From the NCBI GenBank assembly GCA_028283765.1, contig JAPWJY010000008.1, positions 806,001-870,000 of the forward strand: DNA of 64,000 nucleotides, given 5' to 3'. Made by a program: the position numbers and the translations under genes. A model generated the notes under the pieces. It had not been told where the DNA came from, made no database searches, and saw nothing but the letters and a program-made list of their open reading frames with translations. The number at the start of each line of letters is the position of its first letter. The stretch's first letter is position 1. Shown here piece by piece: positions 9,643 to 55,009 of the stretch. Origin of the DNA: Parvibaculaceae bacterium. GTDB taxonomy: Bacteria; Pseudomonadota; Alphaproteobacteria; Parvibaculales; Parvibaculaceae.

Positions 9643-10815
9643 ATGGATTCAGGATTTACACTTGGGCTCGACCCGCGGGCGATGTTTCTGGTCAACGCCA
9701 TCTCCCTCATTGTCTTTTCCGGCGCATTTTTTTCGGCATGGATAAAGGAAAAAAAGAATACCTACTGGCTGTACTGGATCGCCGCGAACATGGCTTTCGG
9801 CCTGTCGTTTGTCCTGTTTGCCGTGATCGATCTCAACAGTGTCAGGCAATTTGTGGTGCCCAATTGTCTGCTTGTCCTGGGTCTTGGATTCCGCTGGCAG
9901 GCCCTGCAGGTCTTCTACGGGCGCGACATGTCGTTTCGTGCCTCGTTCAAGGTCTCCTACTTTCCCGTTCTTCTCGTTGCCGTCCTGTTTCTTTTCAAGA
10001 ACAGCGCGGGAACGGGTGTCGTTTACGGCGGCGTGAACGTTGTGATCGCCGTCCAGCTGATGCTGATTATCCATGTTCTTCTGACAGAGAAGCGCGAGGA
10101 TCTGCCATCCCGCTGGGGGCTGGTGGTGGCCTATGCCCTGATCTGGGGCTCGACGGTCGCGCGGGTGATCCAGGGATGGTGGCCGGGCGATGACGTCACG
10201 AGCCTGCTGCCCCGGGATTTGCTGCTTGAGATACATCTCCTGCTGGCGACGGTTCATATCATCGCAAGCGGGGCGTTCGCACTTTCGCTGGCCTATGAGC
10301 GAGGGGCCTCCGATCTGCGGCAACTGGCGCTGCGCGATCCCCTGACCGGTCTTCACAACCGCCGCGCATTCGAGGAGTTTATCGCCCGGGCCACCCCGCT
10401 TTATCTTGGCGAGCGGTTTGCCGTGGCTACTTTCGATATCGACCATTTCAAGCGGATCAATGACCAGTTCGGTCACGCTCTGGGCGATGCCGCTCTCCAG
10501 CGATTTGCCCTCGTCCTTTTGAAAATCCTTCGCCAGACGGATTTCGTGTCCCGCATGGGTGGGGAGGAGTTTGTCGTGGTGCTGCCCAAAACCTCCCTTG
10601 CGGAAGCGCACATGATCGTCGAACGGGTCAGAAGCGCCGTCGAGAAAGATGGCGTGAGGCACAGGGAGGCCATTGTGAGATTCACCGTCAGCGCCGGGGT
10701 TCACGGCGCGCGGACGGGGACGATGGAAATGTCTGAAATCGTCAAACGGGCGGACGCCAATCTCTATGCGGCCAAGATCGGGGGCCGGAACCGGGTGGAG
10801 GTCAGCTCCTCATAA
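9643..10815 (+). CDS. GGDEF-domain protein, probable diguanylate cyclase
   Basis: About 390 residues. The N-terminal ~220 residues form several hydrophobic membrane segments (LVNAISLIVFSGAFFSAW, FGLSFVLFAVIDL, YFPVLLVAVLFLF and others). The cytoplasmic GGDEF domain starts at RDPLTGLHNRRAFEEF. The active-site loop is GGEEF at about residues 306-310, so catalysis of cyclic di-GMP synthesis is expected. An inhibitory RxxD (RQTD) lies five residues before it, so product feedback is likely. The upstream frame is open, but the sequence before 9640 is not membrane-like. A purine-rich GGGCGGAG precedes the two adjacent ATGs (9640, 9643). The sensed signal is unknown. Confidence 0.86.
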   Translation: MDSGFTLGLDPRAMFLVNAISLIVFSGAFFSAWIKEKKNTYWLYWIAANMAFGLSFVLFAVIDLNSVRQFVVPNCLLVLGLGFRWQALQVFYGRDMSFRASFKVSYFPVLLVAVLFLFKNSAGTGVVYGGVNVVIAVQLMLIIHVLLTEKREDLPSRWGLVVAYALIWGSTVARVIQGWWPGDDVTSLLPRDLLLEIHLLLATVHIIASGAFALSLAYERGASDLRQLALRDPLTGLHNRRAFEEFIARATPLYLGERFAVATFDIDHFKRINDQFGHALGDAALQRFALVLLKILRQTDFVSRMGGEEFVVVLPKTSLAEAHMIVERVRSAVEKDGVRHREAIVRFTVSAGVHGARTGTMEMSEIVKRADANLYAAKIGGRNRVEVSSS

Positions 10816-10892: not shown

Positions 10893-10926
10893 CATACCCA
10901 TAAACAAATTATGGTTTATGGGTATG
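10893..10926. promoter_or_regulatory. perfect 13-bp inverted repeat upstream of ompW
   Basis: CATACCCATAAAC (10893-10905) and GTTTATGGGTATG (10914-10926) are exact inverted copies with an 8-base spacer, ending 51 bases before the porin start. No T tract follows, so an intrinsic terminator is unlikely. A related sequence, TATGTGGGTATG, recurs at about 10941-10952. The arrangement fits a protein-binding operator with an extra half-site, or an mRNA hairpin in the leader. Confidence 0.55.
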
Positions 10927-10977: not shown

Positions 10978-11688
10978 ATGCAGGCGAAGGTCACCCGATT
11001 GGCGGGTAAGGAGATGGCCGGGCTGATGCTCGGTACGGTGCTGGCGGTGGCAGGTGCCATGCAGGCGAAGGCGGGAGAGGTGTCCACCCTTCCCCAGCAG
11101 GGCGCGGTGGCCGAGGCCCCGTTTACCGGCAAGTCGGCGGGTGACGTGATGGTCCGCGCAAGGCTGCTCGGGGTGATTCCGCAGAACAATGGCTCGACCA
11201 GCCTGGGCGGGCATCCAACGGGCAACAATGATATTATCCCGGAACTGGATGTCAGCTATTTCATCACGGACAATATCGCGCTCGAATTGATCGCGGGCAC
11301 CTCGAAACATGATATGAAGGCGGCTCACACATCAGGCGGCGATATAGGCATCGGGAGTGTCAGGCTGCTGCCGCCGACATTGACGGCGCAGTATCATTTC
11401 ATGCCCAAGGAGCGGCTGAGCCCCTATCTGGGCGCAGGTCTCAACTACACCTTCTTCTATGACGTCAGTACGCCTGGCGGTGGCATCGACAGCGTTCATT
11501 ACGATAATCACATCGGCTATGCGCTTCAGGCCGGTGTCGATTACGCGATCACGCCGAATGTCTACTTCAACGCCGATGTGAAGAAGATTTTCCTGCGCAC
11601 CGACGTGTCGGTGAACGGCGGGGCCGTCACGGCAAGAGCGAAAATCGATCCCTGGCTGGTTGGCGCCGGTATCGGCTACAAATTCTGA
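10978..11688 (+). CDS. OmpW family outer-membrane protein
   Basis: A 236-residue protein of the OmpW family, small eight-stranded beta-barrels that carry hydrophobic compounds across the outer membrane. A signal peptide spans about residues 1-33 (hydrophobic LMLGTVLAVAGAMQAKA). The family features follow: DVMVRARLLGVIPQNNG, PELDVSYFITDNIALELIAG, PTLTAQYHFMP, YLGAGLNYTFFYD, and a terminal aromatic residue (IGYKF) typical of barrel insertion signals. GGAGG sits 8 bases before the ATG. It is expressed alone, bounded by an upstream inverted repeat and a downstream terminator. Confidence 0.88.
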   Translation: MQAKVTRLAGKEMAGLMLGTVLAVAGAMQAKAGEVSTLPQQGAVAEAPFTGKSAGDVMVRARLLGVIPQNNGSTSLGGHPTGNNDIIPELDVSYFITDNIALELIAGTSKHDMKAAHTSGGDIGIGSVRLLPPTLTAQYHFMPKERLSPYLGAGLNYTFFYDVSTPGGGIDSVHYDNHIGYALQAGVDYAITPNVYFNADVKKIFLRTDVSVNGGAVTARAKIDPWLVGAGIGYKF

Positions 11689-46311: not shown

Positions 46312-47526
46312 ATGCTCTCTTCTACTGTCACCTCCCCGGCCCGCCCTTCTCGCCGGACGGCAGGCTTTTCCCTTGTCGCCGCTGTCCTCGTTTCCGTTTC
46401 CGGGCTTCTCGCCGGTTGTGGCGACAAAAAGGATGAGTCGCAGCAGCAAGACACGCCAGCCGTCGGCTTTGTGACGATGGCGCCCGAAAGCGTCACCTTC
46501 ACCACGGACCTGCCGGGCCGGATTTCCTCGCTTCGCGTCGCCGATGTGCGGGCGCGGGTGGATGGCATCATCCTGCGGCGCGCCTTCGAGGAAGGCAGCG
46601 AGGTCAAGGCGGGGCAGTTGCTCTTCAAGATCGACCCGGCGCCCTATCAGGCGGCGCTGGACAGTGCGAAGGCCACGCTTGCCCGGGCAGAAGCGAACCA
46701 GCAATCGGCCAGCCTTCTTGCCAAGCGGTACAAATCCCTGGTCGCGATCCATGCCGTCAGCCAGCAGAACTATGACGATGCGCTCGCCGCCGAGCAGCAG
46801 AATCTGGCGGATGTGGCGTCGGGCAAGGCTGCCGTCGAAACCGCCCAGATCAATCTGGGCTATACGGATGTGATTTCCCCCATTTCCGGCCGTATCGGCA
46901 GGGCGCAGGTAACTGAAGGCGCCTATGTGCAGCAGGGCAGCGCCACTCTCCTTGCCACTGTGCAGCAGATCGATCCTGTCTATGTGGACGTGACCCAGTC
47001 GACGACCGACCTGCTGCGTCTGCGCCGTGAATTCGAGAGCGGCCAGTTGCAGAAGGCCGGCGACAACGCCGCCGTCGTTTCGCTCACCCTGGAGGACGGA
47101 CGGGAATATTCCCAGAAGGGAAAGCTCGAATTCTCCGACATCACCGTGGATGAAGGTACGGGTTCGATCACGGTTCGCGCCGTTTTCCCCAATCCCGATC
47201 GCGTACTCCTGCCGGGCATGTTCGTCCATGGCACGCTGGACGAGGGCGTGAAAGACGGTGCTTTGATGGTGCCGCAGGAAGGCGTGACGCGCGATCCGAA
47301 GGGCAATGCGACAGTTCTGTTGATCGATGCGGATAACAAGATTGTTCAGCAGTCGATCAAGGCGGATCGGATCGTGGGAGACAAGTGGCTTGTGAGTGAT
47401 GGGCTCAAGGCGGGCGACAAGGTCGTCGTGCAGGGCTTGCAAAAGGTTCGTCCGGGCGAAGTGGTAAAGCCCGAGGAAGCCAATCTGGAGGGTAACACCG
47501 AAGGGTTCGGTATTCAGGCCAAGTGA
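46312..47526 (+). CDS. RND efflux periplasmic adaptor (AcrA/MexA family)
   Basis: A 404-residue membrane-fusion protein. Lipobox LLAGC gives lipidated Cys36. The lipoyl half DVRARVDGIILRRAFEEGSEVKAGQLLFKIDP (about 76-107) is followed by a coiled-coil hairpin (LARAEANQQSASLLAKRYKSL, QQNYDDALAAEQQNLADV), the second lipoyl half, and beta-barrel with ISGRIGRAQVTEGAYV and FVHGTLDEG. It links the inner-membrane pump to the outer-membrane channel. It is the first gene of a three-gene efflux operon. Confidence 0.92.
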   Translation: MLSSTVTSPARPSRRTAGFSLVAAVLVSVSGLLAGCGDKKDESQQQDTPAVGFVTMAPESVTFTTDLPGRISSLRVADVRARVDGIILRRAFEEGSEVKAGQLLFKIDPAPYQAALDSAKATLARAEANQQSASLLAKRYKSLVAIHAVSQQNYDDALAAEQQNLADVASGKAAVETAQINLGYTDVISPISGRIGRAQVTEGAYVQQGSATLLATVQQIDPVYVDVTQSTTDLLRLRREFESGQLQKAGDNAAVVSLTLEDGREYSQKGKLEFSDITVDEGTGSITVRAVFPNPDRVLLPGMFVHGTLDEGVKDGALMVPQEGVTRDPKGNATVLLIDADNKIVQQSIKADRIVGDKWLVSDGLKAGDKVVVQGLQKVRPGEVVKPEEANLEGNTEGFGIQAK

Positions 47527-47580
47527 ACCTGTCCGAATACGCAATGCTTCAACGGTCTCCTGTTAAAGAAAGCCAGTGTC

Positions 47581-50500
47581 ATGGCAAATTTCTTCATTGA
47601 TCGCCCGATCTTCGCCTGGGTTATCGCTATCGTTCTCATGCTTGCCGGCGGGCTGTCGATCATGTCGCTGCCCATCGCGCAATATCCGCCGGTCGCGCCG
47701 CCGTCCGTCCAGATCACGGTGACCTATCCCGGTGCCTCGGCGAAAACGGTCGAGGATACGGTGACCCAGGTCATCGAGCAGAAGATGAACGGCATCGATC
47801 ATCTGGAATACATGTCGTCGACGAGTGACGACACCGGTATCGCCAGCATCGTGCTGACCTTCGCGGCGGGCACGAACCCCGACATCGCCCAGGTGCAGGT
47901 GCAGAACAAGCTGCAACTCGCGACGCCGCTGCTGCCGCAGGAAGTGCAGGCGCAGGGTGTGAAGGTTGCCAAGGCCGCGCGTAACTTCCTGATGGTTGCG
48001 GGCTTCGTTTCCGCGGACGGCAGCATGTCGCGGACGGACCTGACCGACTATGTGGCCTCGAACATCCAGGACCCCATCAGCCGTACGAACGGTGTGGGCG
48101 ACATTACGCTGTTCGGCGCCCAGTATGCCATGCGTATCTGGATGGACCCGGCCAAGCTCAACAGCTTCAATCTGGCGCCGCCGGATGTCATCAGCGCCAT
48201 TCAGGCCCAGAACGTGCAGGTCTCGGCGGGACAGCTCGGCGGCACGCCCGCTGTGCCCGGCCAGAAACTGTCTGCCACCATCATTGCGCTGACGCGCCTT
48301 CAGACGCCCGAGCAGTTCAAGAACATCCTGTTGAAGGTCAATCCGGACGGTTCGCAGGTTCGCCTGCGCGACGTCGCCAGAGTTGAACTCGGCGGTGAAA
48401 GCTACACGTCCGACGCTTATTACAACGGCAAGCCGGCCGCCGGTCTGGGTATCAACCTTGCCACCGGCGCCAATGCCTTGCAGACGTCGGACGCCGTGCG
48501 CGCCCAGATCGCCGCCCTTGCGCCCTATTTCCCGAAGGGGTTCCAGGTCGTTTACCCCTATGACACGACGCCGTTCGTGAAGCTGTCGATTGAAGACGTG
48601 GTGAAGACCCTGATCGAGGGCATCATTCTCGTCTTCCTCGTCATGTATCTTTTCCTGCAGAACATCCGGGCGACGATCATTCCGACAATCGCGGTGCCCG
48701 TCGTTCTGCTGGGAACCTTTGCGATCCTCTATCTGGCCGGATTTTCGATCAACACGCTCTCCATGTTCGGCATGGTGCTGGCTATCGGTCTGCTCGTGGA
48801 CGACGCCATCGTGGTGGTGGAAAACGTCGAGCGCATCATGACGGAGGAGCATCTGTCCCCGCGGGATGCGACCCGAAAGGCCATGGGCCAGATCTCCGGC
48901 GCTCTTATCGGTGTTGCGCTGGTGCTGTCGGCGGTGTTCGTGCCCATGGCGTTCTCAGGCGGGTCCGTGGGCGCGATCTATCGCCAGTTCTCCCTCACCA
49001 TCGTCTCGGCCATGACGCTGTCGGTGCTGGTTGCCCTTATCCTGACGCCCGCCCTTTGCGCCACCTTGCTGAAACCGCATACCGGAGGGGAAGGGCATCA
49101 TGGCTTCCTCAGCGGGTTCTTCAACTGGTTCAACCGTACTTTCGACTCGAGCAGCCATAAATATTCCAACACCGTGTCGCGGATGCTGGGCAAGGCTGGC
49201 CGCTATCTTGTCATCTATGCCGTGATCGTTGTTGCCACCGGATTCCTTTTTGTGCGTCTGCCTTCCTCGTTCCTGCCCAACGAGGACATGGGCATTCTTT
49301 ACGCGCAGGTCCAGTTGCCCGCCGGCGCTTCGCAGGCGCGGACGCTGACCGTTCTGAAAGACGTCAAGGAATATCTGCTGACGAAGGAAACGGACACGGT
49401 CGACTCGGTTTTCACGATCGCCGGCTTCAACTTCGCGGGCCGCGGACAAAATTCAGGTCTGGCCTTTATCCGGTTCAAGGATTGGTCGGTGCGTCCGCAC
49501 AGCAATCAAAGTTCGGCCTCGGTGGTTGACCGGTTTACAGCGTATTTTGCCAACAGCAAGGATGCGATGTTCTTCGCGATCAATCCGCCGCCCATTCAGG
49601 AACTGGGCACGGCCAGCGGCTTTGACCTTGAGTTGCAGGACCGTGGCGCGCTGGGACATGAAAAGCTGATGGCGGCGCGCAACCAGCTTCTTGGAATGGC
49701 CATGAAGAATCCGGTCATTGCGCAGGTTCGTCCCAACGGGCTTGACGATATGCCCCAGTACAAGATCGAGATCGACCAGGAAAAGGCCAGTGCGCTGGGC
49801 GTGTCGCTGACGGACATCAGCACGACTCTTTCGTCGGCCTGGGGCTCGGACTATGTCAACGACTTCATCGACCGCGGCCGTGTGAAGAAGGTCTATATCC
49901 AGGGGGATGCAGCCTCCCGCATGACGCCGGACGATTTCAATAAATGGTACGTGCGGAATGCCGCCGGCAACATGGTGCCGTTCTCGGCCTTCTCCACGGG
50001 TCACTGGACATATGGATCGCCGAAGCTCGAACGTTATAACGGCATCTCGGCGGTTGAAATTCAGGGACAGGCCGCACCGGGCAGAAGCACGGGTGAGGCG
50101 ATGTCTGCCATGGAGGAAATGATCAAGCAGCTGCCTCAGGGCATCGGCTATGAATGGACGGGTCTCTCGTTCGAGGAGCGGATGTCGGGTTCGCAAGCTC
50201 CCGCCCTTTATGCCTTGTCGGTTCTGATTGTGTTCCTCTGCCTTGCTGCCCTCTATGAGAGCTGGTCGATCCCGTTCTCGGTCATTCTGGTCGTGCCGCT
50301 CGGTATTTTCGGCACGCTGCTTGCGACCTCGGCGCGGGGCCTGTCGAATGACGTCTACTTCCAGGTGGGTCTGCTGACGACCGTGGGGCTTGCCGCCAAG
50401 AACGCCATTCTGATCGTGGAGTTTGCAAGGGATCTGCAGGCGCAGGGCAAAGGCCTTGTCGAGGCCACGCTCGAAGCCGTCCATCTGCGTCTCCGGCCTA

Positions 50501-50742
50501 TTCTGATGACGTCCATGGCCTTCATCCTTGGCGTGTTGCCTCTGGCCATCAGTTCCGGTGCAGGTTCGGCAAGCCAGCACGCCATCGGTACCGGCGTGAT
50601 CGGCGGCATGTTGTCGGCGACCTTCCTTGCGATCTTCTTCGTGCCGATCTTCTTTGTGGTCGTGCGGCGGACCTTCTCACGGGACAAGGCGGATGATGAT
50701 GGCACGACGCCTCCGGCTACCACCGTCGAGGGAGGGCACTGA
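47581..50742 (+). CDS. RND multidrug efflux permease, HAE1 family (AcrB/MexB-like)
   Basis: A 1053-residue proton-driven inner-membrane pump. It begins with [18 protein letters not shown]. The proton-relay aspartates lie in the fourth helix, [20 protein letters not shown] (about 401-420). The large periplasmic loops include [21 protein letters not shown], and the second half repeats the membrane set ([35 protein letters not shown]). The hydrophobic amphiphile exporter type is clear; drug specificity is not. The adaptor lies 54 bases upstream and the outer-membrane gene 1 base downstream. Confidence 0.94.
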
Positions 50743-50743
50743 C

Positions 50744-52234
50744 ATGACGAAGCTCACGGTTCCTCTCTCGCTCGCCGCCGTTCTGCTGACCGCGGGTTGC
50801 ACCCTGATACCCGATTATCTGCGGCCTGAGGCGCCCGTCGCCGCGGCATGGCCCACGGGTCCCGCCTATCAGGCGGACGCCGCGGGCGCGGACAAGAACG
50901 CCAGCCAGCCTGCCGCCATCGAGATCGGCTGGCGCAATTTCTTTACCGATCCCGACTTGCAGAAGTTGATCGGGCTGTCGCTCTCCAACAACCGCGATCT
51001 CCGGGTGGCCGTGCTCAACATCGAGCAGGCCCGCGCGCAATATCAGGTCCAGCGCGCGGATCTGCTGCCGAAGATCAACGGTGTCGCGGACGGCACGCGC
51101 CAGCGCCTGCCCGCCGATCTGAGCCAGACCGGCAGGTCGGGCATCTCCAGCGATTACTCCGTCGGTCTTGGCGTCACGGCGTTCGAACTTGATTTCTTCG
51201 GCCGCGTCCGCAGCCTCAAGGAAGAGGCATTGAACCAGTATCTGGCGACCGGCGAAGCCCGCCGCAGCGCCCAGATATCTCTGGTTGCCGAGGTGGCGGA
51301 TGGCTATCTCACGCTGCTGTCCGATCGCGACCAGCTTGCGCTTGCGCAGAGCACGCTCAAGAGCCAGCAGGATTACTACCAGTTGATCACGGCGCGCTAT
51401 AATGGCGGCGTGGCGTCGGAACTCGACCTGAGGCAGGCGGAAACGCAGGTCAACACAGCCGAAGTCAATGTCGCCCAGTTCTCCCGTCTGGTGGCGCTGG
51501 ACCTGAATGCGCTGACGCTTCTGGTGGGCGGTCCGCTGCCTGAAAATGTTGTGAAAGCCGATTCGACGAAGGTGGCGCTCACGGACCAGAACTTCCTTGA
51601 AGATCTGCCCGCCGGTCTGCCGTCCGATCTGCTGACGCGGCGGCCCGATGTGGTCGAGGCCGAATATCAGCTCAAGGCCGCCAACGCCAATATCGGCGCG
51701 GCGCGCGCCGCCTTCTTCCCCAGCATCACGCTGACGGGGAATATCGGCACGGCCAGTTCCCAGCTTTCCGGCCTCTTCGATGGCGGTTCGGGCGCCTGGT
51801 CGTTCGCGCCGCAGCTCAACCTGCCGATCTTCGATACCGGCAGCAACATCGCCAACCTCGATCTCGCCAAGGTTCAGAAGAACATCCAGATCGCGCAATA
51901 TGAAAAGACCATTCAGACGGCCTTCCGGGAAGTGTCCGACGGTCTTGCCTCGCGCGGCACGCTCAGCAGCCAGCTTGCCTCGCAGCAGTCGCTCGTGAAC
52001 GCCGACCAGCGCTCCTATGATCTTGCGCAGGCCCGCTATGATGCGGGCGTCGAGGATTATCTGGTCGTGCTCACCTCGCAGCAGCAGCTTTTCCAGGCCC
52101 AGCAGAATCTGATCAGTACACGGCTGCTGCGGCTGTCCAATCTGGTCGATCTCTACAAGTCGCTTGGCGGCGGCTGGGTCGAGAAAACCGGCGACAAGCC
52201 CGCTCCGGCCGATGTCGATCCGCCGGCATGGTGA
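50744..52234 (+). CDS. outer-membrane efflux lipoprotein (OprM/NodT family)
   Basis: A 496-residue TolC-like channel with lipobox LLTAGC (lipidated Cys19). It has the two repeated alpha-helical/beta parts: WRNFFTDPDLQKLIGLSLSNNRDLRVAVLNIEQARAQY at the start, RRPDVVEAEYQLKAANANIGAARAAFFPSITLTG in the middle, and YDLAQARYDAGVEDYLVVLTSQQQLFQAQQNL near the end. The start follows directly after the RND stop. It completes the tripartite pump. Confidence 0.93.
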   Translation: MTKLTVPLSLAAVLLTAGCTLIPDYLRPEAPVAAAWPTGPAYQADAAGADKNASQPAAIEIGWRNFFTDPDLQKLIGLSLSNNRDLRVAVLNIEQARAQYQVQRADLLPKINGVADGTRQRLPADLSQTGRSGISSDYSVGLGVTAFELDFFGRVRSLKEEALNQYLATGEARRSAQISLVAEVADGYLTLLSDRDQLALAQSTLKSQQDYYQLITARYNGGVASELDLRQAETQVNTAEVNVAQFSRLVALDLNALTLLVGGPLPENVVKADSTKVALTDQNFLEDLPAGLPSDLLTRRPDVVEAEYQLKAANANIGAARAAFFPSITLTGNIGTASSQLSGLFDGGSGAWSFAPQLNLPIFDTGSNIANLDLAKVQKNIQIAQYEKTIQTAFREVSDGLASRGTLSSQLASQQSLVNADQRSYDLAQARYDAGVEDYLVVLTSQQQLFQAQQNLISTRLLRLSNLVDLYKSLGGGWVEKTGDKPAPADVDPPAW

Positions 52235-52242
52235 TGCCGGCG
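52221..52242 (+). terminator. 22-bp hairpin overlapping the efflux operon stop codon
   Basis: A perfect 9-bp stem CGCCGGCAT / ATGCCGGCG with loop GGTG; the TGA stop of the outer-membrane gene lies in it. No T run follows, so termination would be inefficient or factor-dependent. It may instead protect the 3' end. Confidence 0.45.
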
Positions 52243-52259
52243 TGACAGCCACGTGTTCT

Positions 52260-52314
52260 GGCGTGAAAATTGCGTGCGTGCTTACATAAGTCACGACATT
52301 GGAATTTTCACGCC
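52260..52314 (+). promoter_or_regulatory. perfect 12-bp inverted repeat ending at a start codon
   Basis: GGCGTGAAAATT (52260-52271) and AATTTTCACGCC (52303-52314) are exact inverted copies separated by 31 bases. The second arm touches the ATG at 52315. No clear ribosome site lies outside the arms. In RNA the stem would hide the start region; in DNA the arms could be paired operator half-sites. Confidence 0.6.
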
Positions 52315-53097
52315 ATGAGCTATCCAGTTGCCGAACAATGGTATCTCCGTCAGGAGCATCCAGATGGGATCACGAGATTCTGGGAGCCCCATGTCCATCC
52401 GCTTGAGCAGGCGAATTTCTGGCATGTGCGGGGCCGCGACCGCGACCTGCTGATCGACAGCGGCATGGGCATCGTGCCGTTGCGCTCAAGCTTCCCCGAT
52501 CTGTTCGAGGGGCGCGAAACCATCGCGCTCGCCACCCACACCCATATCGATCATATCGGCGCGGTGCATGAATTTGAGCACCGCTGGGTGCATCCCGCCG
52601 AAGCGCACCATATGGAAAGCCCGTCAGGGCTCGTTTCGATCGTCGCCTCCGACATCGATCCCGAACTCTGCCGCCTGTTCGTCGAGGCGGGCTATCCGCC
52701 GTTCGATGAACTGCTGGTCGATGCCTTCCCCTATGAAGGGTTCGATCCGCGCAGCTACCGGCTTCTCGGCGCGCCGCCCACCCGTCTCGTCACCGAGGAA
52801 GATGTGATCGACCTCGGCGACCGTCAGTTCACGCTGCTTCATCTGCCGGGCCATTCGCCGGGCAGCCTCGGGGTCTGGGAGGAGGCGACCGGCACGCTCT
52901 TCACCGGCGATGTGGTCTATGACGGGCCGCTCGTCTATGAGGGGCCGGGCATGGATCTCGACGTCTATGCCGCAACCCTGCGCGAGTTGCGGGACATGCC
53001 GGTCAGCATCATTCATGCAGGCCATGATCCGAGCTTTGGCCCGGCGCGTCTGGGCGAGATCGTCGACCGTTATCTGGCCTTGTGGGGCAGGGCCTGA
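52315..53097 (+). CDS. metallo-beta-lactamase-fold hydrolase
   Basis: A 260-residue MBL-fold protein. The metal motif is THTHIDHIGAVHEFEH (HxHxDH, about residues 76-81), with HLPGHSPGSLGVWE for the next histidine, LFTGDVVYDG for the bridging aspartate, and IIHAGHDPSFG for the last histidine. All metal ligands look intact. The sequence resembles glyoxalase II-like or lactonase-like hydrolases, and the substrate is unknown. The frame is open back to 52270 (TTG), but MSYPVAEQWYLRQ is a more natural start. A large inverted repeat directly precedes the ATG. Confidence 0.85.
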   Translation: MSYPVAEQWYLRQEHPDGITRFWEPHVHPLEQANFWHVRGRDRDLLIDSGMGIVPLRSSFPDLFEGRETIALATHTHIDHIGAVHEFEHRWVHPAEAHHMESPSGLVSIVASDIDPELCRLFVEAGYPPFDELLVDAFPYEGFDPRSYRLLGAPPTRLVTEEDVIDLGDRQFTLLHLPGHSPGSLGVWEEATGTLFTGDVVYDGPLVYEGPGMDLDVYAATLRELRDMPVSIIHAGHDPSFGPARLGEIVDRYLALWGRA

Positions 53098-53119
53098 AGA
53101 GGCTTTTTCCCAAATAAAA

Positions 53120-53144
53120 GCCCTCTCCCCGGCGGGGAGAGGGC
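53120..53144 (-). terminator. terminator of the isochorismatase-fold gene
   Basis: A perfect 11-bp stem GCCCTCTCCCC / GGGGAGAGGGC with a 3-base loop. On the minus strand it is followed by TTTTATTT, a typical U tract, 18 bases after the minus-strand gene's stop. It may also end the plus-strand hydrolase transcript. Confidence 0.85.
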
Positions 53145-53162
53145 GTCTTGAGGCTTATGAGA

Positions 53163-53813
53163 TCAGGAGGCCAGCGCCAGCTTGTCGCGGGCCGCGGCGA
53201 AGGCGCGGAAGCCCTCGACGATTTCGGCTGATTGCCGCCGCGCGCCGCTTTGCAGATATTCCATGGCGTTGAGCGAGGCGTCATGGGCCGGGCGGCTGGA
53301 GCCGCCGACGCAATCCTCGACAACCCGGCAGAAATAATCGTTCTGGTGGCTGTCCACGAAGGTGTAGTGCACGCACACGTCCGTCAGTCCGCCCACCAGC
53401 ACCAGCGTCTGCGCCTTCAGGCCCTTGAGCAGGATTTCAAGATCGGTGCCGAAGAAGGCCGAGTAGCGGCGCTTGGCGATGACGTAATCGTCGGGCCGCA
53501 GGCCCAGCTCCTCTTCCGCCACCGGCGTGCCCTCGTCGTCCTCAAGGCAATGAATGTCCTCGACGCCGTCGAGTTCGCGGCCGAAATCCACCAGCGTGCG
53601 CCGGTGCACTTCCGCGATGAAGATGATCGGAATGTCCGCCTCGCGCGCGGCGTCGACCACCACGCGCGCCTGCTCCATGCGGGCGGAATAGCCTTCCATC
53701 AGCGGGATCGGCTGGGGTGCGTTCTTGAAGAACGAGCCTTTCTGGATGTCGACGACGATCAGCACGGGCTGGCCCTCGATCATCGCGCGCCGCTGTCTTT
53801 TTATCTCTGTCAT
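53163..53813 (-). CDS. isochorismatase-fold cysteine hydrolase
   Basis: A 216-residue isochorismatase superfamily hydrolase. The catalytic triad is recognisable: Asp in VLIVVDIQKGSF (about residue 22), Lys in YVIAKRRYSAFFGTDLE, and Cys in LVGGLTDVCVHYTFVD (about 150). Relatives hydrolyse C-N bonds, as in N-carbamoylsarcosine amidase, biuret hydrolase, ureidoacrylate hydrolase or nicotinamidase. It is 11 bases downstream of the IPNS-type dioxygenase and opposite the ABC importer, suggesting a role in breaking down the imported nitrogen compound. The substrate is unknown. Confidence 0.85.
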   Translation of the reverse strand: MTEIKRQRRAMIEGQPVLIVVDIQKGSFFKNAPQPIPLMEGYSARMEQARVVVDAAREADIPIIFIAEVHRRTLVDFGRELDGVEDIHCLEDDEGTPVAEEELGLRPDDYVIAKRRYSAFFGTDLEILLKGLKAQTLVLVGGLTDVCVHYTFVDSHQNDYFCRVVEDCVGGSSRPAHDASLNAMEYLQSGARRQSAEIVEGFRAFAAARDKLALAS

Positions 53814-53824
53814 GATCTCAACTC

Positions 53825-55009
53825 CTATACGGGGGATTCGTTGATGGCCTTGCGCTTGAACGGATTTTCCTGATGCAGGGGAAAATCCACCTTGAGTTCG
53901 CCGGTCAGGATTTTTTTGCGCAGGTGCTTGGTATCGAGGATGCTGAAGCAGGCGAGGTGGTCGCCCGCCACGATGCGCGTGTAGCCGGAAGGCCGCTCCG
54001 GGGTCACGAACCGGGGCAGGGGCTCGACCACCGTGTGGTAATCGACGGCGAAGAACAGCGGCAGCGAATAGCGTTCGACGCCGGTGTTGACCACGCGGTG
54101 CTGGGTCGCCTTGAACAGGCCGTTGGTCCAGCCCTCCACCAGATCGCCGATATTGACGATGAAGCAGCCCGGCAGGGGCGGCGCTTCCACCCATTCGTCC
54201 GCCGAGTTCATCACCTGCAGGCCGGGGCCGCTGGTGTTGAGGATGGTGAAGCATTCAAAGTCCGAATGCGCGCCGATGCCCAGATTCTGGCGGTCCATGG
54301 GCCTGTCGTTCGGCGGATAGTGCAGCAGGCGCAATTGCGAACTGGGCTTGGTCGCCTTTTCCAGAAAGAACGTCTCGGGCAGGCCGAGCGCCATGGCGAA
54401 GGCGCGGAAGAGCTGGTTGCCGACATTCATCACGGCTTTGTAATAGCTCTGCACATCCTCGCGGAAGCCGGGCAGCCAGTCCGGCCACTGGTTGGGCACC
54501 AGCATCAGATTGCCCGCCAGATAGTCCGGGTCGTCGTCGGCGATCTCGATGGAACTGTCGAAGGCCTGATGCAGGCGCGGATGGCCCAGATGGTCGTCCT
54601 TCGGGTCTTCGGGCGCGGGCGACAGCCGGTAAAGCTCCGGGTCCGGGTCTTCATAATCCAGCGTGCTCGGCAGCCATCCGCGGTTGCCCTGCGAGTTGCG
54701 CACATGCACGCGCTCGCGCAGTTCGACGGGCGAATGGTGGAAGGCGGCGGATTGCGCATAGGCCTTGTCGATCAGCGCCTGGGGCACGCCATGGTTGCTG
54801 ATATAGAAGAAGCCGACATCCTCGCAGGCCCTGCCTATTTCCTGGGCGACTGCCTGGCGTGCGGCCTCGTCGGTGCCGGACAGCGCGCCAATGTCGATGA
54901 CCGGAATGGCGGTGAAGGGCATTTTTGCGGCGCCCATGGCGCCGGATGTTTTTTCACCGGAGTTTGTTGCGCCGGCGCTCGCCGGCGGGGTTTGTGGCAG
55001 CGTGATCAT
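53825..55009 (-). CDS. isopenicillin N synthase family 2OG/Fe(II) dioxygenase
   Basis: 394 residues. The N-terminal DIOX_N part is IPVIDIGALSG, GRACEDVGFFYISNHGVP. The oxygenase core has GIGAHSDFECFTIL (HxD iron ligands, about residues 245-247), LQVMNSADEWVEAPPLPGCFIVNIGDLVEGWTNGLFKATQHRVVN with the distal histidine, and RYSLPLFFAVDY with the 2-oxoglutarate-binding arginine/serine. The first ~30 residues are Pro/Ser/Ala-rich and lie outside the fold, so a start at an internal methionine (MPFTAIPVIDIG) is possible. It is divergent from the importer genes across a 16-bp palindrome. Confidence 0.87.
   Translation of the reverse strand: MITLPQTPPASAGATNSGEKTSGAMGAAKMPFTAIPVIDIGALSGTDEAARQAVAQEIGRACEDVGFFYISNHGVPQALIDKAYAQSAAFHHSPVELRERVHVRNSQGNRGWLPSTLDYEDPDPELYRLSPAPEDPKDDHLGHPRLHQAFDSSIEIADDDPDYLAGNLMLVPNQWPDWLPGFREDVQSYYKAVMNVGNQLFRAFAMALGLPETFFLEKATKPSSQLRLLHYPPNDRPMDRQNLGIGAHSDFECFTILNTSGPGLQVMNSADEWVEAPPLPGCFIVNIGDLVEGWTNGLFKATQHRVVNTGVERYSLPLFFAVDYHTVVEPLPRFVTPERPSGYTRIVAGDHLACFSILDTKHLRKKILTGELKVDFPLHQENPFKRKAINESPV

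Follow-up and report, generated by a model that had tools for sequence, protein, structure and literature searches.

A possible RNA insulator at the start of a metallo-beta-lactamase-fold hydrolase gene: an inverted repeat whose left arm carries a sigma-54-like promoter motif

The window (the whole 64-kb stretch of DNA analysed here) contains a three-gene efflux operon that reads toward a gene for a metallo-beta-lactamase-fold hydrolase (Table 1). The hydrolase protein reached the cut-off of no NCBIfam model and is therefore not called a resistance enzyme; it is probably the product of a gene of metabolism. Its metal-binding motif, HxHxDH, reads THTHIDH (window 52537-52554). The corresponding protein of a congeneric species, 96% identical, reads THTNIDH (L036 4223-4240), with N replacing one usual metal ligand, which could be a genuine change or a metagenome assembly error. 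An upstream TTG at 52270, opening a 275-residue ORF, was ruled out as the start codon, since the spacer of the inverted repeat described below is one nucleotide shorter in the congener and this breaks the frame.

The last gene of the operon, encoding the outer-membrane efflux protein, is present in 11 of 40 family genomes. The first-pass annotation had placed a 9-bp hairpin at its stop codon; this hairpin is indeed present and, as judged by alignment, is retained only in part in the congener. Scanning of 52000-53300 identified zero terminator-like sites on the plus strand, which makes read-through from the efflux operon into the hydrolase gene plausible. A role of the hairpin at the hydrolase start as an intrinsic terminator was ruled out by the same scan. 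On the minus strand, an 11-bp, GC-rich terminator-like stem at window 53120-53144 is retained in the congener and sits behind an isochorismatase-family gene that is convergent with the hydrolase gene.

Table 1. Coordinates of the features discussed (positions of the window, except where a genome and contig are given)
Feature	Position	Strand	Remarks
Efflux operon	46312-52234	+	three genes, reading toward the hydrolase gene
HlyD-type adaptor	46312-47526	+	first efflux gene
RND-type pump	47581-50742	+	1053 aa; named from sequence
Outer-membrane efflux protein	stop at 52234	+	last efflux gene
9-bp hairpin at efflux stop	52221-52229 / 52234-52242	+	4-nt loop
Sigma-70-like pair GTGACA-17-GAAAAT	52242-52270	+	alternative promoter-like motif; 9/12; predicted start near 52277, in the spacer
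Sigma-54-like -24/-12 motif TGGCGTG-AAAA-TTGC	52259-52273	+	putative promoter; left arm plus next two bases
Left (5') arm TGGCGTGAAAATT	52259-52271	+	13 nt; also carries the -24 box of the sigma-54-like motif
Spacer	52272-52302	+	31 nt, partly self-paired; contains both predicted starts (~52285, sigma-54-like; near 52277, sigma-70-like)
Right (3') arm AATTTTCACGCCA	52303-52315	+	13 nt, 100% complementary to the left arm; last base is the A of ATG
Metallo-beta-lactamase-fold hydrolase gene	52315-53097	+	260 aa; Pfam Lactamase_B
2-oxoglutarate-oxygenase-like gene	G000:C3:506815-507888		leader 506756-506814 (L158/L188); product named from sequence

An inverted repeat spans the start of the hydrolase gene. 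The first-pass annotation described it with the correct spacing of 31 nt and with arms of 12 bp; the arms are one pair longer, and the 13th pair involves the A of the hydrolase ATG at 52315. Two further features go beyond that description, namely the retention of the arms in a second species and pairing within the spacer. As the spacer also pairs, 52259-52315 is predicted to form a single hairpin of 24 pairs. Folding of the RNA 52255-52330 gave a z score of -6.0, and none of 200 dinucleotide shuffles was equally stable; the longer stretch 52235-52384 gave -3.3, with 1 of 200 shuffles as good. On average, the 13 pairs between the arms form with a probability of 0.99. Perfect 13-bp inverted repeats with a spacer of at most 60 occur twice in the window (52259-52315 and 10893-10926), compared with 0.2 on average per first-order Markov copy of it (20 copies; maximum 3). 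If 55 genes with 30 positions each are assumed, a window like this one is expected, by a rough estimate, to contain 0.005 repeats of this kind that reach a start codon. The other perfect repeat, CATACCCATAAAC, has 8 nt between its arms and is located 78 bp after an ORF ending at 10815 and 52 bp before an ORF at 10978.

Calculated accessibility sets this start apart from others in the window. Opening the region from -18 to +13 around the hydrolase ATG costs 25.2 kcal/mol, the highest value among 25 starts picked from the window's ORF list and folded identically (the next is 21.8 kcal/mol), and the z score of this start is also the lowest in the panel. For transcripts beginning at 52135 or 52245, which contain both arms, the opening cost is 23.1 or 21.6 kcal/mol, whereas for transcripts beginning at 52277 or 52285 it is 6.6 or 7.9 kcal/mol. 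The congener behaves alike, with 20.1 and 20.5 kcal/mol for the read-through RNA versus 6.7 and 6.8 kcal/mol for the short RNA. The ATG triplet itself shows no gain in the window's species (0.40 unpaired in the short RNA versus 0.35-0.40 in the read-through RNA), and in the congener the values are 0.58-0.62 versus 0.45-0.64. In these calculations, the gain in accessibility on the short RNA is in the leader rather than in the ATG triplet. The best anti-Shine-Dalgarno duplex amounts to just -3.3 kcal/mol in both species, the freed leader included; this weak ribosome site is in line with the earlier remark that the gene lacks an independent one. Sequestration of the start region on the longer transcript is supported by calculation. 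The earlier proposal that the stem occludes the start is borne out in part, by the opening cost, the pairing of the arms and their persistence in the congener.

We searched 61 genomes of relatives, one of which is congeneric (G001, 68% complete; its contig is also JAATFR010000002.1 or L036, a Hyphomicrobiales MAG). Exact arms were found in two of the 61, the window's own genome and the congener. In the latter the gene order is the same, both arms are unchanged (13/13 each, 26/26 together) and the spacer is 30 nt long, with 28 of 30 aligned bases identical and one gap. Fourfold-degenerate sites served as the reference, with 304 of 390 (78%) identical between the two species. Against this level the whole hairpin is more conserved (54 of 56 aligned bases; binomial P = 1.2e-4), as are the arms taken by themselves (P = 0.0015), and the intergenic stretch directly before the hairpin is not (19/23 plus a gap; P = 0.40). 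The z score of the start region is about -6 in both species. The spacer changes seen in the congener do not preserve the fold beyond what random changes would: of 2000 simulated changes, 15% were at least as stable. This test was not significant, so we claim conservation of the arms and do not claim covariation.

The hairpin was absent from 22 orthologous starts in other genera, where z scores ranged from -2.57 to +1.85 with mononucleotide shuffles. This set comprises the correctly placed 22 of the 23 loci L009-L031, L031 having been dropped as misplaced owing to a short contig flank; several of the starts were taken as the nearest in-frame start codon and are possibly wrong, above all those of the distant L029 and L030. 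Many of the other-genus orthologues carry, by eye, a purine-rich ribosome site. In seven relatives (L037-L043), the region from -200 to +20 of the tblastn match start was free of perfect inverted repeats whose arms reach 8 or more; the check covered these seven of the named loci, the other 70 being distant. Among 385 genomes of the class, a covariance model of the hairpin matched just one, the window's own; the hairpin-bearing congener evidently lay outside that draw. Conservation of the arms in relatives, which the first-pass annotation had proposed as a check, therefore came out positive for the single congener and negative for the other-genus orthologues read, and so far as seen the hairpin appears to be a trait of the genus.

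A distribution confined to two close genomes is what one would expect of a functionless palindrome specific to this lineage, created by chance or by replication and common to both species by descent. Such a palindrome would also fit the spacer changes, which protect the fold no more than chance would, and with fourfold identity already at 78% the perfect match of the arms is not overwhelming. It accounts poorly, however, for a hairpin that is more conserved than both the fourfold sites and the stretch preceding it, that is placed exactly at the start codon and that is extreme among the 25 starts. We consider this explanation unlikely.

The left arm and the next two bases together form a sigma-54-like promoter motif. 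With correct spacing, TGGCGTG-N4-TTGC agrees with 9 of 11 positions of the consensus TGGCACG-N4-TTGC given in the excerpt available of PMC3224663 (the excerpt of PMC12316311 also covers sigma-54 promoters of the -24/-12 type). The same score of 9/11 is obtained by the glnA promoter of X. fastidiosa, a promoter with a mapped start according to the same excerpt of PMC3224663. Boxes and spacing of the hydrolase motif are thus like those of known sigma-54 promoters; here, in contrast, the start is a predicted one (~52285) and the boxes have a second role as a hairpin arm. The motif is identical in the congener. Across the genome, the strict pattern TGGCRYG-N4-TTGC has 23 sites versus 7 for a reversed control. 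When genic and intergenic DNA were divided by a codon-usage gene caller written for this analysis, 22 of the 23 fell inside genes and the sole intergenic one was the site in the hydrolase arm. On the minus strand, across from the efflux gene, a long ORF covers the arm motif; it was taken as spurious.

The genome encodes rpoN and a Sigma54_activat protein with GAFTGA and Walker A motifs, which we take to be an NtrC-like activator. A search for an NtrC-type activator site near the hydrolase gene gave a best score of 8/12, usual for shuffles; amtB, a usual target of NtrC, served as a control and was weak too (9 and 8). Both hexamers of the alternative sigma-70-like pair are kept in the congener, where they align at a spacing of 16. 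A transcription start within the loop had been named in the first-pass annotation as grounds for refuting occlusion. Both promoter-like motifs suggest such a start, and we draw the opposite conclusion from it: read-through mRNA would be closed and the gene's own mRNA would lack the 5' arm, so an occluded start and a loop start are compatible, and the latter would complete the switch.

The genome has two copies of the string TGGCNTGAAAATTGC, each in intergenic DNA, 41 and 44 nt before start codons. Within the family, 2 of 40 genomes carry the string, and both belong to this genus. Among looser matches to the motif, 13 of 28 are intergenic, one being the right arm itself; these counts are to be read with the caveat that the motif was spotted post hoc and that AT-rich strings tend toward intergenic DNA. 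When up to two mismatches are allowed, TGGCNTGAAAATTGC has 29 genomic sites, compared with 4 for a reversed control.

We tentatively favour a reading in which the repeat acts as an RNA insulator, closing the hydrolase start on read-through mRNA and leaving it open on mRNA from the gene's own promoter. RNA polymerase arriving from the efflux operon would produce a transcript containing both arms; this would fold into the hairpin of about 24 pairs, hide the ribosome entry region and yield little hydrolase. The gene's own promoter, most likely a sigma-54 promoter with its -24/-12 boxes in the left arm and the next two bases, would act on a presumed signal. Its mRNA would begin in the spacer (~52285), without the left arm, and with an open leader of about 30 nt would be translated.

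The exact and conserved arms could instead serve at the DNA level, as inverted sites for one protein that flank the promoter and repress it or loop the DNA, with the RNA fold a by-product. Consistent with an operator, the left arm overlaps a promoter-like motif and the window is richer in weak arm matches than expected: 26 sites have up to three mismatches, versus a mean of 14.3 in shuffles (0 of 100 shuffles reached 26; the largest count was 23). The window's near-matches beyond the two arms, however, differ at two or three positions, and the arm has no other exact copy in the genome, where four sites match with one mismatch. This excess of weak arm matches, like that of the near-TGGCNTGAAAATTGC sites, may be caused by composition or codon use. 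The 1-bp difference in spacer length between the two species (31 versus 30 bp) changes the helical phase of the arms. Nor does an operator account for a repeat that stops at the start codon or for a spacer that pairs. The looping operator offered in the first-pass annotation as a second possibility thus finds little positive evidence, and we think a DNA site of this kind improbable.

Under the insulator reading the hairpin is absent from the mRNA that is translated. If it were instead part of the main mRNA, it might be opened there by heat, a small RNA, a protein or a ligand, which would agree with a start region that is closed in every RNA holding both arms. For a thermosensor, though, the stem is very stable (opening 20-25 kcal/mol), and the folds calculated here showed no alternative conformation. 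Rfam families all scored below threshold: the lone match to Rfam 15 on 51900-52700 had an E value of 0.54, reached 17.5 bits where the gathering score is 47.9, and lay outside the hairpin. A conditional switch of this type appears quite improbable to us. A short segment flanked by inverted repeats might also point to what is left of a small mobile element. This origin is very unlikely and, like that of a dispersed repeat, is rejected on copy number (one hairpin-model match in its own genome, exact arms only at the hydrolase gene); flanking direct repeats were not seen at the locus. In a plasmid search with 52180-53130 as the query, no match among the best 20 of 27 records extended into the hairpin.

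The insulator reading has precedents. Hairpins conceal the start region of T4 gene e and of I-TevI on long early mRNAs, and mRNAs from late promoters are made without the 5' strand, as described in the excerpts available of PMC3014915 and PMC2988022; for the lysozyme encoded by gene e, the former excerpt gives a 100-fold effect. The hydrolase locus would resemble these genes, as the excerpts present them, in having a helix that conceals the start on longer transcripts and a promoter that overlaps or adjoins the 5' strand. The T4 examples are phage genes with late promoters and a measured effect, and I-TevI has a consensus ribosome site; the hydrolase gene, in contrast, belongs to a bacterial chromosome and combines a sigma-54-like motif with a weak ribosome site and a predicted effect. 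For sigG of B. subtilis, it has been proposed that a hairpin of 20 or more pairs keeps read-through mRNA from being translated; mRNA from the sigG promoter is unable to form it (PMC5942855, excerpt). The likeness to this proposal, as far as the excerpt describes it, extends to a chromosomal gene behind an operon and to a hairpin of 20 or more pairs that would form only on read-through mRNA. According to the same excerpt, sigG has a mapped start and a promoter for a sporulation sigma factor, whereas the hydrolase gene has a putative promoter whose own boxes form the hairpin arm. In open-access text, none of the matches listed was a paper on the hydrolase locus or described a stem of this type with a sigma-54 promoter inside it. 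New here are the host, the gene and the use of a sigma-54-like box as a hairpin arm; the kind of arrangement is itself already known.

A second locus shares some of these features. In the 2-oxoglutarate-oxygenase-like gene, a TGGCNTGAAAATTGC box stands 44 nt ahead of the ATG. A hairpin in the leader spans the predicted start with perfect arms of 10 bp, the left one lying mostly before that start. The gene's calculated opening cost falls from 26.7 to 13.5 kcal/mol (from 17.6 to 12.4 kcal/mol in the congener), and its ribosome site falls outside the stem. The congener's site reads TGGCTTG-GGAA-TTGC; the boxes are kept, but both the intervening bases and the upstream flank have changed, as expected for a -24/-12 promoter. 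Orthologues in other genera showed no upstream TGGY-N7-TTGC at 18 loci (L190-L207), some of which have short flanks and an unsure position; 13 of the 33 places were without a locus. The oxygenase-like gene has two paralogues in the genome. One lies inside the window at 53876-54919 (859876-860919) and is the second gene downstream of the hydrolase gene.

The DNA upstream of amtB carries CTGGCATCCCATTTGCG. This is a likelier sigma-54 promoter, and the amtB leader has no unusual fold (z -1.06; opening 10.8 to 5.9 kcal/mol). The genome has amtB together with a following PII-like gene twice, at L144 (G000:C4:1067-2248) and L145 (G000:C3:10003-11184), with closely similar upstream DNA; TGGC-N7-TTGC is found upstream of the C3 copy and is absent from the C4 copy, which is near a contig end. 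One wider idea is that the genus builds some sigma-54 promoters into the 5' arm of leader hairpins, such that only sigma-54-initiated mRNA would be freely translatable and read-through would be silenced. The hydrolase and oxygenase-like loci fit this scheme and the amtB leader does not. The idea is doubtful as it stands, a lead and not a rule.

If the insulator reading is correct, translation would be the level at which a chromosomal gene behind an operon with no detected terminator is insulated, and one short run of bases would double as a promoter box and a hairpin arm. The scheme of T4, proposed also for sigG, would then extend to an alphaproteobacterial gene and a sigma-54-type promoter, and the case would caution against equating an occluded start with a silent gene. 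Should the wider idea hold for the genus as well, such leaders would constitute a two-key gate that couples sigma-factor choice to translation, beyond phages and sporulation.
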